From positions 2,790,001-2,854,000 of the forward strand of contig NZ_CP100454.1 in NCBI RefSeq assembly GCF_024228315.1: a DNA stretch of 64,000 bases, written 5' to 3'. This document shows positions 34,106-45,723 of the stretch, in pieces. A program made the translations under genes and the position numbers. Numbering within the stretch: position 1 is the first letter of the stretch; every line of letters starts with the position of its first letter. Under the pieces are notes generated by a model, which was not told where the DNA came from, did no database searches, and saw only the letters and a program-made list of their open reading frames with translations. The DNA is from Halomarina pelagica (lineage in GTDB: Archaea > Halobacteriota > Halobacteria > Halobacteriales > Haloarculaceae).

Positions 34106-35605
34106 TCACCTGACCGCCTCGTGGGCGGTCCGAACGATGTCGCCCATGCCGTAGTCGAACCGGTGTTCGATCCCGAGCATCACCAGCGCGTAGAGCAGGA
34201 CGCCCGTCGCGACGAGCAGGGCGAACGTCGCGAGCGGCGAGTCGAGGGGGACGCTCGCCCGGACGAGGAACACCCCCGCGCCCATGATCGCGCTGCCGAT
34301 CGCGGGGTAGCCGAGGACGCGGAGGAACTCGGCGGGTCGGCCGTCGACGACGCGCAGCGAGAGGTACGCGGCGATGGGGGTCGTCACGAACTCGTTTGCC
34401 GCGATCACGAGCGCGGTCCCGGCGAGCCCCCACTCCGCGGTCGCCGGGTAGATGAACGCGACGATCAGGGCGAGCTTCAGCGTCTTGATCTTGGTCTGGT
34501 AGTCCGGCCGCCCGACCGCCCGGAACAGCGGCGTCGTCGGCGACCTGATCGACCGCAGGAGACCGTAGACGGCGAGCAACTGCATGGGGAGGATCATCGG
34601 GAGCCACTCGTCGCCGAGGAACGCGACGAACGACGGGGTGACGAGGGCGATCCCGACCGCCATCGGGAACGACGCGAACGCGACGAGCTGGATCGTGCGC
34701 AGGAACCCCGTGCGGAGCTGTGCGACGTCGTTCTGGAGCTTCGAGAAGGTCGGAAACGTCACCTGCGAGAGGGTCTGGGAGATCTCGGTCGCGGGCGCGT
34801 TCGAGAACCGGTACGCCGGCTGGTAGAGGCCGAGCGCGGACGCGCCGAGGAACCAGCCGACGAACGCGTCGTCGCCCTGTCCGTGGAGGAAGCCGACGAC
34901 CGACGAGCCGAAGATCCACTTGCCGTACCCGAGCATCTCGCGCGCGGCGTCGACGCGAAACGCCGGCCACGGGCGGTAGTCGTGGAGCAGGTACGACGAG
35001 AACACGAGGGCCGTCTGTCCGGCGACGAACCCGACCGCGAGCGCCCACACAGACGGGGAGACGAGGGCGTAGCCGAGCGTCACGACGACGCGGACGACGG
35101 TGCTGCTGAGCGTGTACCCGAACTGTCTGTGGAACTCGAGGCCCTTCTGGAAGTAGAGGACGCCCGGGTTGACGAGCCCCGAGAGCAGCGGCGTGAGCGC
35201 GACGAACCGGATGATCGCCGTCGCCTGCGGCGCGTCGAAGAACGCTGCGGCCCACGGGGCGAGCAGGTAGGCGACGGTCGCGAGCGCGACCCCCCGGGCG
35301 ATGTTCAGGCACCACGCCGTGTTCAGGTACGCGTCGACGTTCGACTCCTCGCGCTGGACGAGCGCGGCGTCGACGCCGAGGTGCGAGAACTGCTTGAGCC
35401 CCGCGAGCACCAGCATCGCGATCCCCATCAACCCGATCTCGGTGGGGCTGAGCAGCAGGAGCAGCGCGACCTGCATGCCGAGCAGGAGCGCCCGATCGAC
35501 GACGTTGATCAGCGCGACCCAGATGCCGCTCTTGACCGCACGCTCGGTCACGTCCCCGCTCGGGACGAACCGTCGGAGGGCTCGGACGAGAGTCTTGATC
35601 GACAC
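34106..35605 (-). CDS. Oligosaccharide flippase (MATE/MVF-type, Wzx-like)
   Basis: A 499-aa membrane protein with about 14 predicted helices. VKSGIWVALINVVDRALLLG at the start and GIAMLVLAGLKQFSHLGVDAALVQRE, followed by YLNTAWCLNIARG, are typical of Wzx/RfbX lipopolysaccharide-repeat flippases and of haloarchaeal AglR-like proteins. It would flip a lipid-linked glycan across the membrane. It diverges from an FkbM methyltransferase gene through a 207-nt AT-rich region and is part of the surface-glycan cluster. Confidence 0.88.
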   Translation of the reverse strand: MSIKTLVRALRRFVPSGDVTERAVKSGIWVALINVVDRALLLGMQVALLLLLSPTEIGLMGIAMLVLAGLKQFSHLGVDAALVQREESNVDAYLNTAWCLNIARGVALATVAYLLAPWAAAFFDAPQATAIIRFVALTPLLSGLVNPGVLYFQKGLEFHRQFGYTLSSTVVRVVVTLGYALVSPSVWALAVGFVAGQTALVFSSYLLHDYRPWPAFRVDAAREMLGYGKWIFGSSVVGFLHGQGDDAFVGWFLGASALGLYQPAYRFSNAPATEISQTLSQVTFPTFSKLQNDVAQLRTGFLRTIQLVAFASFPMAVGIALVTPSFVAFLGDEWLPMILPMQLLAVYGLLRSIRSPTTPLFRAVGRPDYQTKIKTLKLALIVAFIYPATAEWGLAGTALVIAANEFVTTPIAAYLSLRVVDGRPAEFLRVLGYPAIGSAIMGAGVFLVRASVPLDSPLATFALLVATGVLLYALVMLGIEHRFDYGMGDIVRTAHEAVR

Positions 35606-35812: not shown

Positions 35813-36886
35813 ATGGTCTCTGTATCACTCGGTACCGGAACGTACACGCTCGCGTCAGCGATCGACGCGCTCGCCGGCGTTCCCGCGTCGGCGCGGATGG
35901 TGGGCGCGAAGGCGGCGCGGTTGCTGCGGGAGCGGCGGTTCGGGCAGTTCGTCGGCTACGTCGGGGAGGTCGTCACCCGGCGGAACCCGTACTACCGGTC
36001 GGTCGCGCGTCGGAGTTCCTCGCGGTTCGTGCGCCGCGAGGTACAGGGGAACGAGATGTACCTCGACCTCGAAGACGAGGGGATCTCCCGGACGCTCATC
36101 GCCTACGGCGTCCACGAACAGCTCTCGACTGACGCGTTCGAGGACGAACTTCGCCGGCTCGGGGAGCGGGTCGACGGCGAGGTCACGGTGCTCGAGATCG
36201 GGGCGAACATCGGCTACTTCTGCCTGCTCGAAGCGGGCATCCTCGGGGAGGACGCGCACATCTACGCGATCGAGCCGGAGCCGGGCAACCTGGATCTGTT
36301 CGAGCGGAACCTCGAACTCAACGGCTACGAGGACCGCGTCGAGATCGAACGGTGCGCCATCGGCGACCGCACCGGTCCGGCCGAACTGGAGCTGAGCGAG
36401 CAGTCGAACCGACACGCGATACGGGTGGCCGAGACCGTCCGGACGACTGACACCGTCACGGACGGCGGGCGGGCGGGGGACGCGGTCGCGACCGAGCGCA
36501 TCCCGGTCCGCCAGGAGACCGTCGAGGGGTTCCTCGCGGAGCGGGAGTGTTCGCCCGAGGCCGTCAACGTCGTTCGAATGGACGTCGAGGGGTACGAGGC
36601 GAACGTCTTCGACGGGATGGGGGGCGTCCTCGCCGCCCCCGGTCCGACGGTCGTGCACGTCGAACTACACCCGATCTACCTCACCGAGATCGAGATCGAC
36701 CGGATCCTCTCGGCGCTCGACGAGAACGGGTTCGAGATCGCGTCGGTCGTCACGAGCGAGGGTGTCGCCAACGTCCACAGACAGTGTCGGTGGCACGGGA
36801 AGGCGCTCGACGTCGACGACTTCGACGAACTGCGCCGGACCATGCTCGAGCGGGAGTACTGGATCGAACTCGTCGTTCGGAAGTGA
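35813..36886 (+). CDS. FkbM-family SAM-dependent methyltransferase
   Basis: A 357-aa methyltransferase. SAM motif I is VTVLEIGANIGYFCLLEAGIL, followed by YAIEPEPGNLDLFERNLELN and the FkbM signature VVRMDVEGYEANVFDGMGGVL. An N-terminal 85-residue extension precedes the domain, as in other haloarchaeal glycan-cluster FkbM proteins. Such enzymes O-methylate sugars of glycans or glycolipids. The promoter region is strikingly AT-rich. It converges with the nucleotidyltransferase-like gene, only 9 nt between stops. Confidence 0.9.
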   Translation: MVSVSLGTGTYTLASAIDALAGVPASARMVGAKAARLLRERRFGQFVGYVGEVVTRRNPYYRSVARRSSSRFVRREVQGNEMYLDLEDEGISRTLIAYGVHEQLSTDAFEDELRRLGERVDGEVTVLEIGANIGYFCLLEAGILGEDAHIYAIEPEPGNLDLFERNLELNGYEDRVEIERCAIGDRTGPAELELSEQSNRHAIRVAETVRTTDTVTDGGRAGDAVATERIPVRQETVEGFLAERECSPEAVNVVRMDVEGYEANVFDGMGGVLAAPGPTVVHVELHPIYLTEIEIDRILSALDENGFEIASVVTSEGVANVHRQCRWHGKALDVDDFDELRRTMLEREYWIELVVRK

Positions 36887-36895
36887 GCCGTCGCG

Positions 36896-37774
36896 TCAGT
36901 ACTCGTCGAACCGGAAGAGCTTCGACCTGATCGCGTCGTATCTGCCTTCGGTCACCGAGTCGTAGACGAGTTCGTCCGCGCCGTAGAACACGTCCGACAG
37001 TAGCTCCCTGAACGCCTCGTCCTTGCGCTGGTCGGCGGTCACCTCCTCGACGAGCGCGTCGCACCGATCGACGTAGTACCCGGAGAACACCCCGTGTTTG
37101 TCGAACACGCAGTGGGCGACCAGATGGGTCAGTTCGTCTGCCGCCATCGGGACGTAGAAGCCCTCGTGTAACCGGCGACGGTCGAACAGCCGTCGCTCGA
37201 CGCTCGGATCGACCCGGATCTGAGATCCGTCCGAGGTCGAGGTGTACGCCAGGTGGTTCCGCAGATCGAGCTTGACTCCCCCGCCCTGCAGTTTCCGGTT
37301 CACGTACCCCTGCTTGTGCGACGTGTTCGGGCGGACGAGTTGCACGACGCGCTCGGGCGCTCGGAGCAGCGTGGCCGCCGCCTCGGTCGGCGATCGGACC
37401 GCGTGCTCCAGCAGCTCCGCCGCGTTCGACACGATCGGCTGGAGGGTCGACTGACGCGCCGTCGTCGGCGTCTCGAATCCCAGCCGCTCGCAGACGTCGA
37501 TCGCCGTCTCGAACTCGGCCGCGTCGACGTAGATGTCGACGTCGCCGCGCGGCGTCTCCGGCAGCAGGTCGTACTTTCGAGGAACGACGTAGCGGACGTC
37601 CCGCTCGTTGAACTCGTCGAACAGCCGTTCGAGGATCGCTCCCTCCGTTCGGCGCTTCGCGCTCGCTCCGTTCTCCCGCACGGTGCGGCGCTCCGCCGTC
37701 GTCGCCGCTCCCGGTCCGGTCCCCCGCTCGATCACGGTTCCGCCCCTCTCGTTCCGTTCGGTCTCTGTCACCAT
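36896..37774 (-). CDS. Nucleotidyltransferase-fold protein
   Basis: A 292-aa protein. After a disordered N-terminus (about 1-45), residues 46-84 give GAILERLFDEFNERDVRYVV and PRGDVDIYVD, the GDxD metal-binding pattern (Asp78, Asp80) of minimal nucleotidyltransferases. The remaining 200 residues include KLQGGGVKLDLRNHLAY, a possible third acidic position. This resembles the uncharacterised nucleotidyltransferase family found in glycan and natural-product clusters. Its start overlaps the upstream small gene by 7 nt. The transferred group and substrate are unknown. Confidence 0.72.
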   Translation of the reverse strand: MVTETERNERGGTVIERGTGPGAATTAERRTVRENGASAKRRTEGAILERLFDEFNERDVRYVVPRKYDLLPETPRGDVDIYVDAAEFETAIDVCERLGFETPTTARQSTLQPIVSNAAELLEHAVRSPTEAAATLLRAPERVVQLVRPNTSHKQGYVNRKLQGGGVKLDLRNHLAYTSTSDGSQIRVDPSVERRLFDRRRLHEGFYVPMAADELTHLVAHCVFDKHGVFSGYYVDRCDALVEEVTADQRKDEAFRELLSDVFYGADELVYDSVTEGRYDAIRSKLFRFDEY

Positions 37775-37965
37775 CCTTTCCTCTCGTGAAGTTCCCGCTG
37801 TGCCCGCGCGATGACGTCGACGAAGTGATCGAACTCGTCGACCGACATGTCCAGTCGCAGGTTGCCCGCGTGCACGTGGATCGTCTCGCCCTTGTTCAGT
37901 TCGATGCGGTACTCCTGTCCGGTCGAGATCTCGAATTCCGCGAGTTCCTCCTCAACGATCCCCAT
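37768..37965 (-). CDS. IHVH-motif small protein, copy 2 (65 aa)
   Basis: A 65-aa acidic protein, starting MGIVEEELAEFEISTGQEYR. Its second half, GETIHVHAGNLRLDMSVDEF followed by a C-terminal amphipathic helix, is a paralogue of the 69-aa protein encoded just upstream (14-nt overlap). It overlaps the nucleotidyltransferase gene by 7 nt downstream, so all three are likely translated together. No known family is recognised; the conserved His-Val-His suggests a metal or phosphate site but this is a guess. Confidence 0.75.
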   Translation of the reverse strand: MGIVEEELAEFEISTGQEYRIELNKGETIHVHAGNLRLDMSVDEFDHFVDVIARAQRELHERKGW

Positions 37966-38161
37966 CGTGAAGCTCCTCCCTGGCGTCTCGTAGTTGGCTG
38001 GCGAACGTGTCGAAGTCGCGGACGCCCATCTCGAGGCGCAGGTTCCGCAGGTGGACGTGGATCGACTCCCCGACGTTGTCGTCGACGACGAACTTCGTGC
38101 TGGTCTTGTCCGGCGCTGGATCGACCTCGTCCTCCGCTAGCACGTACACGAATACGTTCAT
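37952..38161 (-). CDS. IHVH-motif small protein, copy 1 (69 aa)
   Basis: A 69-aa acidic protein, first gene of the three-gene unit. After MNVFVYVLAEDEVDPAPDKT comes the segment GESIHVHLRNLRLEMGVRDF and a helical tail ending REELHDGDR. It aligns with the downstream paralogue: both share GExIHVHxxNLRLxM, then FDxF, then xAxxELH. The promoter lies in the AT-rich run 38195-38260. Function unknown; co-encoded with a nucleotidyltransferase-fold protein. Confidence 0.75.
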   Translation of the reverse strand: MNVFVYVLAEDEVDPAPDKTSTKFVVDDNVGESIHVHLRNLRLEMGVRDFDTFASQLRDAREELHDGDR

Positions 38162-38467
38162 CGCGGGGGACCTCCCCCTGACGTAGTCATTCCCATACCA
38201 TCGTATATCGAGTTATCTTTACTAAAAATTTTACTACATATTTATATTTATTTTAGAATCGTCCAGTGAGTGTCAGAATGTCGGTAACGAAGGCGGACGC
38301 TCTCCCGACCGGCTTCGGCTCTCTGCGGGTCGACGTCGCGCTCGTCGGTCGCCGATCCGGTGGCACGTCGACGTGCGACGGGCGCATCCGACGTCTGTGC
38401 GAATCGGGCGCACGCGACGGTCCGGAGACCGGATACCTTTTTCTCCTTCGCCCTCCCACCTCTCGCT
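38162..38467. other. Divergent AT-rich promoter gap
   Basis: 306 nt between the IHVH operon and the PHP gene. Bases 38205-38260 are extremely AT-rich (for example ctaaaaattttactacat), so this is probably the promoter of the minus-strand operon. The remaining part is ordinary GC-rich DNA with shadow frames only. Confidence 0.5.
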
Positions 38468-44836: not shown

Positions 44837-45343
44837 TCAGCGGTATTCCTCGATGTCCCGATACGGAACGTAGTATCCGAAATCGTCGATCCAGGTTTTA
44901 AGCCACGCGTCTGCGGTCGGTCTGTCGACTCGACCGGCGTCGATAGCCGCGAGCAAGATGCCGACAGAGCCGACTACTGAGATACCTTGGTTCTTGGCGA
45001 ACGTACGAGCGTCACCGTCATCGGTCAGGAGGCGGCCATCGTGAGCGTCGGCAAGGGCGAACGCCTGTGCCTCACCGGGGTCGAGATGCCCGCGGACGAC
45101 TGCCTCACGGTTTGCTACGGTGTCCGAAACCGAAGCGACGGGAACAGTTTCATCGAGCGCATCGAGCGCTGGACGGAGGTACGGATGACTGTCGACTCCG
45201 TTCTCGAGTTCTTCGCGAACGACCGGAACGGTACAAATATTCGCGAGAGCCGCCAGCAAGTCTACGCGATCGATAAACGAGAAGTTGGAGAGGACTGTGG
45301 TATCCAATACGCTCGGATTTGGCGGGACATCGTTCGTCGTCAT
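44837..45343 (-). CDS. PIN-like toxin (DUF3368 type)
   Basis: A 168-aa PIN-fold ribonuclease-like protein. Acidic PIN residues are seen in VLDTTVLSNFSF, EELENGV, DPGEAQAFALA and RLLTDDGDARTFA; the closing GISVVGSVGILLAAIDAGRV is characteristic of the DUF3368/UPF0175-partner toxins. It is co-encoded with the antitoxin-like gene through an ATGA overlap. The proposed role is RNA cleavage when the antitoxin is lost. Confidence 0.85.
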   Translation of the reverse strand: MTTNDVPPNPSVLDTTVLSNFSFIDRVDLLAALANICTVPVVREELENGVDSHPYLRPALDALDETVPVASVSDTVANREAVVRGHLDPGEAQAFALADAHDGRLLTDDGDARTFAKNQGISVVGSVGILLAAIDAGRVDRPTADAWLKTWIDDFGYYVPYRDIEEYR

Positions 45344-45723
45344 TCAGATGGTGAATCGTTACCGCCAGCGGCCGACTGCTCGTCGTCTCTGTCGGTAAAT
45401 TCGAGTTCGGTGGCGGCCCCCGCTTCGTACTCAGCGTCGGCTTCGTCCGCGAGCCCGAGTCGGAGTTCGACGCCGTGCTCACGAAGGATATCGCGCATCG
45501 TCCAGCGGTCGACGGCTGCGAGTCGGGCAGCATCTCCGAGGGTAATCACCTCTCGTTCGTAGAGGGCGACGGCGGCGGCAATGCGTTCGTTTTCGTGGTC
45601 CTCGAAGTATTCACGAGCGAACTCCCGGAGGGCATCGCTCTTACCGCCGAACACGCCGGCTTCGACCGTCCCCTCGATGAGCAGTTCTAAGTCGTCGGGG
45701 TAGGAGCCAGTGATTCGCGCCAT
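45340..45723 (-). CDS. UPF0175-type antitoxin
   Basis: A 127-aa protein: the N-terminal ribbon-helix-helix-like part (MARITGSYPDDLELLIEGTV, then SDALREFAREYF) and the central helix-turn-helix-like stretch VITLGDAARLAAVDRWTMRD are typical of UPF0175 proteins, which pair with DUF3368 PIN toxins. The C-terminus is Glu/Ser-rich and disordered, the part likely to bind and block the toxin. Encoded immediately upstream of the toxin. Confidence 0.85.
   Translation of the reverse strand: MARITGSYPDDLELLIEGTVEAGVFGGKSDALREFAREYFEDHENERIAAAVALYEREVITLGDAARLAAVDRWTMRDILREHGVELRLGLADEADAEYEAGAATELEFTDRDDEQSAAGGNDSPSE

Follow-up and report, generated by a model that had tools for sequence, protein, structure and literature searches.

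Surface-glycan clusters commonly contain genes for nucleotidyltransferase (NTase)-fold proteins of unassigned function, most of which have no known donor or acceptor. A locus in the haloarchaeon Halomarina pelagica poses this problem in a specific form: what is the role of two very small, similar proteins encoded directly ahead of such an NTase? The locus lies in a 64,000-nucleotide (nt) stretch of the chromosome (NCBI RefSeq assembly GCF_024228315.1, contig NZ_CP100454.1, positions 2,790,001 to 2,854,000), referred to here as the window, and comprises three overlapping open reading frames (ORFs) on the minus strand between positions 36896 and 38161. They encode, in order, two miniproteins with an Ile-His-x-His signature (IHxH; copy 1 and copy 2) and the NTase. 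Comparison with other genomes indicates, with high confidence, that these three genes form a conserved functional module for glycan assembly. Its best explanation as a whole, to which we assign a probability of roughly 0.55, is a multi-subunit NTase of surface-glycan assembly.

Copy 1 (69 residues, MNVF...VDDNVGESIHVHLRNLRLEMGVRDFDTF...) occupies 37952–38161, copy 2 (65 residues, MGIVEEELAEFEIS...IELNKGETIHVHAGNLRLDMSVDEFDHF...) 37768–37965, and the 292-residue NTase, carrying the motif GDVDIYV, 36896–37774; the last was recognized from its ORF, its likeness to PF14907 and its AlphaFold2 model. The initial annotation had described the miniproteins as tandem paralogues of 69 and 65 residues, each with a GExIHVH-type motif followed by FDxF, and had placed them in the order copy 1, copy 2, GDxD transferase, with overlaps of 14 and 7 nt; each of these statements holds for the window. 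The motif reads GESIHVHLRNLRLEM...FDTF in copy 1 and GETIHVHAGNLRLDM...FDHF in copy 2, and the proteins are 39% identical over 59 aligned residues, a likeness that is not due to chance given its E-value of 6e-14. The first overlap (37952–37965) is read as DGDR-stop in one frame and as MGIVE in the other, while the second (37768–37774) recurs with the same 7 nt in another haloarchaeon (G001, locus L010). An overlap of exactly 14 nt between the miniprotein genes is found in 14 of 16 haloarchaeal loci, and a GGAGG-like stretch precedes the copy 2 start, inside copy 1, in four of the six junctions inspected. In the window this is a ribosome-binding-like GGAGG at 37975–37979 on the minus strand, 9 nt ahead of the copy 2 ATG, and purine-rich GGAGG or AGGAGG stretches also occur at the junctions of L011, L045 and L048. 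The exact overlap and the GGAGG-like stretch therefore point to translational coupling of the two miniproteins. Just upstream of copy 1, at 38212–38258, a very AT-rich tract is visible by eye in this GC-rich genome, with a TATA-like sequence on the minus strand; it is probably the promoter of the module.

The initial annotation had reckoned with the possibility that the miniproteins occur at random in other genomes or apart from the transferase. Among 97 related genomes, copy 2 was found in three and the NTase in the identical three. A profile built from six miniproteins was then searched against 391 genomes of Halobacteria, 28 of which matched at E ≤ 0.01. Ten matches were strong, with E-values down to 1e-35, and all ten genomes carry two tandem miniproteins and an adjoining NTase homolog; because of this recurrence, the three ORFs of the window are, on comparative grounds, real genes. 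The remaining 18 matches (E 5.6e-5 to 0.0087) cover the profile partially. Seventeen were discarded as chance, and the eighteenth, in genome G180, was accepted as real because an NTase adjoins it. With an NTase profile, the same 391 genomes gave 12 full-length matches at E < 1e-50, namely the strong ten, G180 and G299, and miniproteins are present in 11 of these 12. Matches in 29 of the 43 genomes detected by this profile (about 4e-7 to 7e-6) cover profile residues 5 to 71 only and were treated as other NTases, while G152, whose match (7e-9) contains three stops, and G356, which has fragments only, were regarded as holding remnants. Gene order is mostly copy 1, copy 2, NTase; the NTase comes first, followed by copy 1 and copy 2, in G039.

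The module extends well beyond haloarchaea. A collection of about 85,000 species was scanned with the pattern [VI][ED]DN[IV]GE[ASG][IV], drawn from copy 1 alone, so conservation of the pattern residues across the recovered loci follows from selection; the H-x-H and the Arg after it fall outside the pattern. The scan yielded 41 confirmed loci, comprising 11 from haloarchaea, 29 from bacteria and one from Candidatus ainarchaeum. According to lineages and record titles, the bacterial loci span eight phyla: Bacillota, Bacteroidota, Pseudomonadota, Campylobacterota, Planctomycetota, Omnitrophota, Spirochaetota and Myxococcota. Thus the NTase adjoins the miniproteins not only in ten of ten haloarchaeal genomes but also in 40 of the 41 pattern-selected loci, an outcome that speaks against random occurrence and for the module; 39 of the 41 also have a second miniprotein. 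The misses are L070 (NTase and copy 2) and L086 (copy 2), in both of which the contig ends at the module. Even before any retraining, profiles made from haloarchaeal sequences only recover both bacterial partners at nearly every locus, the NTase at about 1e-8 to 1e-28 and copy 2 at about 1e-4 to 1e-13; the NTases of L080 and L070 are missed.

In the NTase tree, all 11 haloarchaeal rows form one clade (100/99), adjoined by L083 (98/89), and a single origin in haloarchaea is therefore compatible with the tree. For copy 1, copy 2 and the NTase, pairwise distances are correlated, with r values of 0.77, 0.70 and 0.77 that none of 2000 permutations reached; the correlation is weaker within haloarchaea (0.41, 0.42 and 0.68). 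Correlated distances would be expected if the parts are inherited as a set. The module is nonetheless rare, since an NTase search in the class of Herbinix returned one strong match, the seed itself, among 196 genomes. Judged from these loci, it is scattered across archaea and many kinds of bacteria, with its parts adjacent and co-inherited. Two loci hold broken modules, L058 (8255–9138) and L077 (7046–8607): the NTase frame is split in both, and the DGQHR part of copy 1, described below, is split in L077 as well. Viral contigs scanned with copy 2 or the NTase alignment, and phage proteins searched with a bacterial copy 1 protein, returned nothing, and a viral or phage origin was dropped. A plasmid search with a bacterial copy 1 protein gave no match, and one with the window NTase found a single haloarchaeal plasmid, which carries a copy 2–NTase fusion.

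Natural fusions connect the parts of the module with one another. Copy 2 and the NTase form one protein in Haladaptatus sp. DYSN1 (L090; WP_277506213.1, 340 residues, annotated as hypothetical), and copy 1 and copy 2 are joined in G180, where a single 139-residue frame (L096, 5503–5919) directly precedes the NTase. Outside haloarchaea, 28 of the 30 loci have copy 1 as the N-terminal domain of a larger protein of more than 200 residues, typically 210–300, and 23 of these 28 long proteins contain a DG[QGW]HR motif in their second half. The two exceptions are L083, whose copy 1 stands alone as in haloarchaea, and the broken L077. A fourth kind of fusion occurs in L056 (Sedimentisphaerales), in which copy 1, DGQHR, one GT9 and two GT2 glycosyltransferase domains are contained in one 1211-residue protein. 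Read as a chain from NTase through copy 2, copy 1 and DGQHR to glycosyltransferase, the fused sequences suggest interaction between successive parts, and the four fusion kinds hint at which parts touch which. The miniproteins are probably physically interacting partners of the NTase. Separately, copy 1 of L076 (7998–8690) is joined to a different C-terminal half that lacks DGxHR and has, by eye, the look of a Rossmann sugar- or nucleotide-binding domain.

The IHxH domain of copy 1 has a single invariant site: all 37 aligned rows share both His residues of the H-x-H and the Arg that comes after them. Of 42 possible rows, this alignment omits L054, L058, L076, L077 and L083; with these five included, the H-x-H is kept in 42 of 42 loci (the window plus 41). 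Copy 2, aligned in 40 rows without L070 and L086, which have no copy 2, has the first His at its aligned column in 39 of the 40. At the second position, at least 25 rows have Gln and at least 13 have His, Gln being usual in bacterial copy 2. The conserved His-x-His proposed by the initial annotation thus stands for copy 1 and, across the wider family, does not extend to the second His of copy 2. In the copy 1–copy 2 fusion of G180 (L096), ICIC replaces IHIH; this exchange of His for Cys at both positions would fit a metal site, and it is a single case. In copy 1, the H-x-H may bind a metal or a ligand, or it may lie at a subunit interface.

The bacterial copy 1 protein of L088 (Herbinix) was modeled with a mean predicted local distance difference test (pLDDT) score of 93.8. 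Its residues 1–61 are predicted to form four strands (6–13, 19–25, 29–34 and 37–41) and a helix (43–61). Structural matches of this miniprotein domain are weak and of PUR/PC4 arrangement (PURA, Z 4.7; SP_0782, 3.5; EF_3132, 3.5; MoSub1, Foldseek probability 0.51); throughout, structural matches with Z under 8 were not taken as evidence of family. Neither miniprotein is claimed by any family in Pfam, NCBIfam, PHROGs or PADLOC. The sole Pfam or NCBIfam match, to TrmI-like_N at E = 0.13, is at chance level and was rejected.

The third protein of the window is, according to its AlphaFold2 model (mean pLDDT 86.4), clearly of the nucleotidyltransferase fold of the Pol-beta-type superfamily; about 40 N-terminal residues, absent from its homologs, have low model confidence. 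Its closest solved fold is MenT1 (Z 13.1, root-mean-square deviation 3.2, 163 residues aligned); further matches include ANT(2'')-Ia (Z 10.7, 155 aligned), TM1012 (10.4), MenT3 (9.3) and LnuA (9.0), and Foldseek alone returned no match at E ≤ 0.001. The GDVD motif lies at residue 77, and the first Asp of GxDxD is present in 37 and the second in 36 of 38 aligned module NTases. Left out of this alignment were the broken NTases of L058 and L077, the truncated one of L086, locus L070, which has none, and the additional NTase-like genes at L080 and L084. In the column of the third catalytic carboxylate, 28 of the 38 proteins, including that of the window, have Asp, nine have His and one has Ile. 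The NTases of L080 and L084 have lost GDxD, and each has an adjoining second NTase-like gene in which it is intact. These second genes (L080, 6613–7146; L084, 8800–9492) are divergent, lie next to the module and carry GDVD or GDID, and neither matches Pfam at E ≤ 0.01. A pair of pseudoenzyme and active enzyme is possible at these two loci, and the retention of an intact gene nearby suggests that an active NTase is needed.

With respect to sequence families, the window NTase matches NTP_transf_5 (PF14907) at E = 1e-5; its 25.7 bits fall below the gathering score of 31.2 and therefore place it outside the curated family. Among the 38 module NTases, 23 match PF14907 at E ≤ 0.01 (best 1.1e-8), and the GxDxD core is common to both; no described PF14907 setting found in the open-access literature includes two IHxH partners, and no paper on PF14907 or NTP_transf_5 was found there. 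The antibiotic NTases ANT(2'')-Ia and LnuA resemble the module NTase in fold, and the Lnu(C) model has weak matches to two of the 38 module proteins, at best 7.8e-6; the module differs from them in its gene setting and its two partner proteins.

The DGQHR part of bacterial copy 1 forms a domain of its own. Its structural matches in the L088 model all lie below a Z of 8 (ParB-N, 6.8; sulfiredoxin (Srx), 6.5; SbnI, 5.2; SerK, 4.3), and the seven best (Z 6.0–6.8) are all ParB or Srx, which makes a ParB/Srx fold a tentative assignment from the model. The DGxHR motif, which is assigned to that fold, supports this lead. SbnI is also the only sequence match of a bacterial copy 1 protein in the PDB, at E = 0.79, and PF02195 gave no match at E ≤ 0.1 in the ten bacterial copy 1 proteins scanned. 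The excerpt of PMC12704722 describes the ParB/Srx (ParB-CTPase) fold as the ATP-binding module of the small-molecule kinases SerK and SbnI and its survey as built on PF02195; such a survey would miss the DGQHR domain because PF02195 does not match it. The lack of a PF02195 match and the absence from haloarchaeal loci distinguish the domain from ParB, SerK and SbnI. No DGQHR domain was found in the window, in 14 haloarchaeal loci searched with a DGQHR model or in the Haladaptatus locus, and the domain cannot be the core of the module because haloarchaea lack it near their modules. As far as these loci go, the domain was lost from haloarchaea or was absent there from the start, leaving copy 1 on its own. 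By analogy with the kinases, a pairing of kinase or switch with NTase is plausible in bacteria.

Searches of defense and phage libraries gave little for the module. PADLOC had no match for the window proteins and one weak match (MTase_II, E = 0.015) for a bacterial copy 1 protein, and a defense system was dropped for want of a match in the window. PHROGs gave three matches only, with E-values of 0.0065–0.087 to families of unknown function, none involving a window protein.

The genomic surroundings agree with the initial annotation, which had located the trio in a glycan cluster. In the window, an FkbM-family methyltransferase gene (35813–36886, plus strand; PF05050, E = 3.8e-18) and a MOP-type polysaccharide flippase gene (34106–35605, minus strand; PF13440, E = 4.5e-75) lie beside it. 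A homologous flippase (cluster c1) occurs in seven of nine haloarchaeal comparison loci, FkbM genes also occur at L010 and L042, and haloarchaeal neighbors in general include flippases, AglB/STT3, FkbM, GT2 and Asn synthase-like genes. Among the 30 non-haloarchaeal loci, neighbor clusters are of the epimerase/dehydratase type in 10, GT2 type in nine, GT9 type in nine and GT4 type in seven, with nucleotide-sugar dehydrogenases in five and ABC exporter pairs in five; cluster names were assigned by reading, with Pfam tallies of 50 and 51 neighbors. In three Selenomonadaceae, the module was seen inside a flagellar operon (L068, 6986–8606; L069, 3984–5610; L072, 292–1912), between a CheC/FliM-FliY-type gene and FliO/FliP/FlhB/FlhA, where it may serve flagellar glycosylation or some role in flagellar assembly. 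Elsewhere in the window, at 44837–45723 on the minus strand, a UPF0175 protein (PF03683, E = 8e-11) is followed, with a 4-nt overlap, by a PIN-like protein (E = 0.006, below the cut-off); these genes are probably a toxin–antitoxin pair.

How the parts might work together can be outlined as follows. The NTase would be the catalytic subunit, using the two Asp residues of GxDxD to move a nucleotide-derived phosphoryl group to a hydroxyl on a sugar of the glycan precursor; this group would be a nucleoside monophosphate, or a phospho-sugar from a nucleoside diphosphate sugar. The two IHxH paralogues would each be a beta-beta-beta-beta-alpha domain and would pair with one another. Copy 2 would hold the NTase, and the invariant H-x-H...R patch of copy 1 would either bind a donor or acceptor phosphate or dock the complex on the glycan enzyme that follows. 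Bacterial copy 1 would usually carry the next module itself, a ParB/Srx-like domain binding nucleoside triphosphate (NTP), and once also GT9 and GT2. The phosphoryl-transfer chemistry in this outline falls somewhat short of even odds. More tentative still is the complete version, in which an IHxH heterodimer couples the NTase to a ParB/Srx-type kinase or switch and to glycosyltransferases, thereby installing phosphoryl or phospho-sugar groups on surface or flagellar glycans, with the H-x-H...R in an active or ligand site.

A partial precedent is PsmN, an annotated NTase of the pseudomycoidin lasso-peptide cluster, which, in the excerpt of PMC9266682, adds a hexose to a phosphorylated peptide alongside the kinase psmK. 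As there described, the likeness consists in an annotated NTase serving as accessory modifier, with an adjoining kinase gene and transfer of a hexose to a phosphorylated target. The differences are a peptide target in PsmN and the IHxH and ParB/Srx-like domains in the module. Systems of the PsmN type have an HprK-type kinase and PqqD-type partners. Neither PqqD nor HprK was matched in the three window proteins (Pfam and NCBIfam, E ≤ 1) or in ten bacterial copy 1 proteins (E ≤ 0.1; for L056, among the best 25 of 31 NCBIfam matches).

Several points weigh against a multi-subunit NTase of glycan assembly. G299 encodes a full-length NTase with no miniprotein within 12 kb, so the partners are not absolutely required; a second, partial NTase of G340 (L098) likewise stands without miniproteins, and in one locus (L044; G258) the NTase is divergently transcribed. 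The His or Ile at the third carboxylate in 10 of 38 NTases may mean altered or lost activity. The counts of glycan neighbors are raw tallies rather than enrichments over random loci, several adjacent bacterial neighbors match no Pfam family, and the FkbM and flippase neighbors do not identify the substrate. The module is known here from sequences and single-chain structure models alone.

Other explanations assign the miniproteins or the NTase a different part. The miniproteins could be acceptors that the NTase nucleotidylates or glycosyl-phosphorylates, for example on a conserved His, and so be carriers of an activated group. Their small size, tight coupling and invariant copy 1 His-x-His would fit, as would the reported transfer of a hexose by PsmN to a phosphorylated peptide (PMC9266682, excerpt), but copy 1 is usually part of a 210–300-residue protein that has a second domain as well, an arrangement more in keeping with an enzyme subunit than with a carrier; moreover, at least 25 of the 40 rows of copy 2 have Gln for the second His, and in one copy 1 Cys replaces both. 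We consider this explanation unlikely. Quite doubtful is the view that the NTase is a LicD/FKRP-like phosphotransferase moving phospho-X from a cytidine diphosphate (CDP) conjugate, CDP-X, to a glycan, with the miniproteins merely stabilizing it. LicD-family enzymes do belong to the NTase superfamily, share phosphoryl transfer onto glycans and, according to the excerpt of PMC11666461, use CDP conjugates to move polyol phosphates onto capsules in capsule synthesis. FKRP is among the structural matches as well, at a Z of about 6 only, yet the closest folds are of the compact MenT1/ANT/Lnu type, and PF04991 is matched by none of the 38 NTases at E ≤ 0.01.

That MenT1, solved with its antitoxin (8an5), is the nearest fold raises the question of whether the trio is a toxin–antitoxin system of the MenT/MenA or MNT type that has come by chance into surface-gene islands; small partners, translational coupling and sporadic distribution are typical of such systems. 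Fold alone shows no function, however, and the antibiotic NTases are nearly as close (Z 10.7 and 9.0). Pfam, NCBIfam and PADLOC name no antitoxin family for the miniproteins, with no direct comparison to MenA sequences made, and the window proteins are without a PADLOC match. The module also differs from MenT1 and MenT3 in its two paralogous partners, its glycan-gene setting in both domains of life and the fusion of copy 1 to ParB/Srx-like and glycosyltransferase domains, and this origin appears very improbable. The same low standing applies to a regulator of glycan genes, in which the ParB-like domain and a PC4/PUR-like miniprotein would bind nucleic acid or NTP and the NTase would modify RNA or a messenger nucleotide. 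Weak structural resemblances speak for it, to PURA (Z 4.7) and SP_0782 (Z 3.5) for the miniprotein domain and to ParB-N (Z 6.8) for the C-terminal domain, but values below 8 may reflect a common arrangement only. ParB/Srx folds also serve as ATP-binding modules of the kinases SerK and SbnI (PMC12704722, excerpt), and the direct GT9-GT2-GT2 fusion argues for an enzymatic place in glycan assembly. The acceptor, toxin–antitoxin and regulator explanations are all less likely than an enzyme of glycan assembly.

The catalytic superfamily and the glycan setting are of kinds already known. Against Pfam, NCBIfam, PHROGs, PADLOC and the open-access literature, the two-partner arrangement, the IHxH domain family and the cross-domain spread were not found and appear to be new. 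The listings of open-access papers on HprK/PqqD/NTase combinations, haloarchaeal glycosylation NTases, PsmN and small proteins with NTases gave no account of the trio, and papers retrieved for DGQHR concern DNA phosphorothioation or unrelated topics, to judge from their titles and the beginnings of their abstracts. The suggestion of an undescribed three-gene module was therefore borne out within the libraries and papers searched. For an NTase of a surface-glycan cluster, the module offers a defined, testable unit, with two partner domains that are nearly always present and a single invariant H-x-H...R site. It brings to light two domains unnamed in the libraries searched, the IHxH domain together with a divergent DGQHR domain that resembles ParB/Srx, and it reveals a pair of very small haloarchaeal ORFs annotated as hypothetical to be a pared-down version of a protein that occurs in several bacterial phyla.

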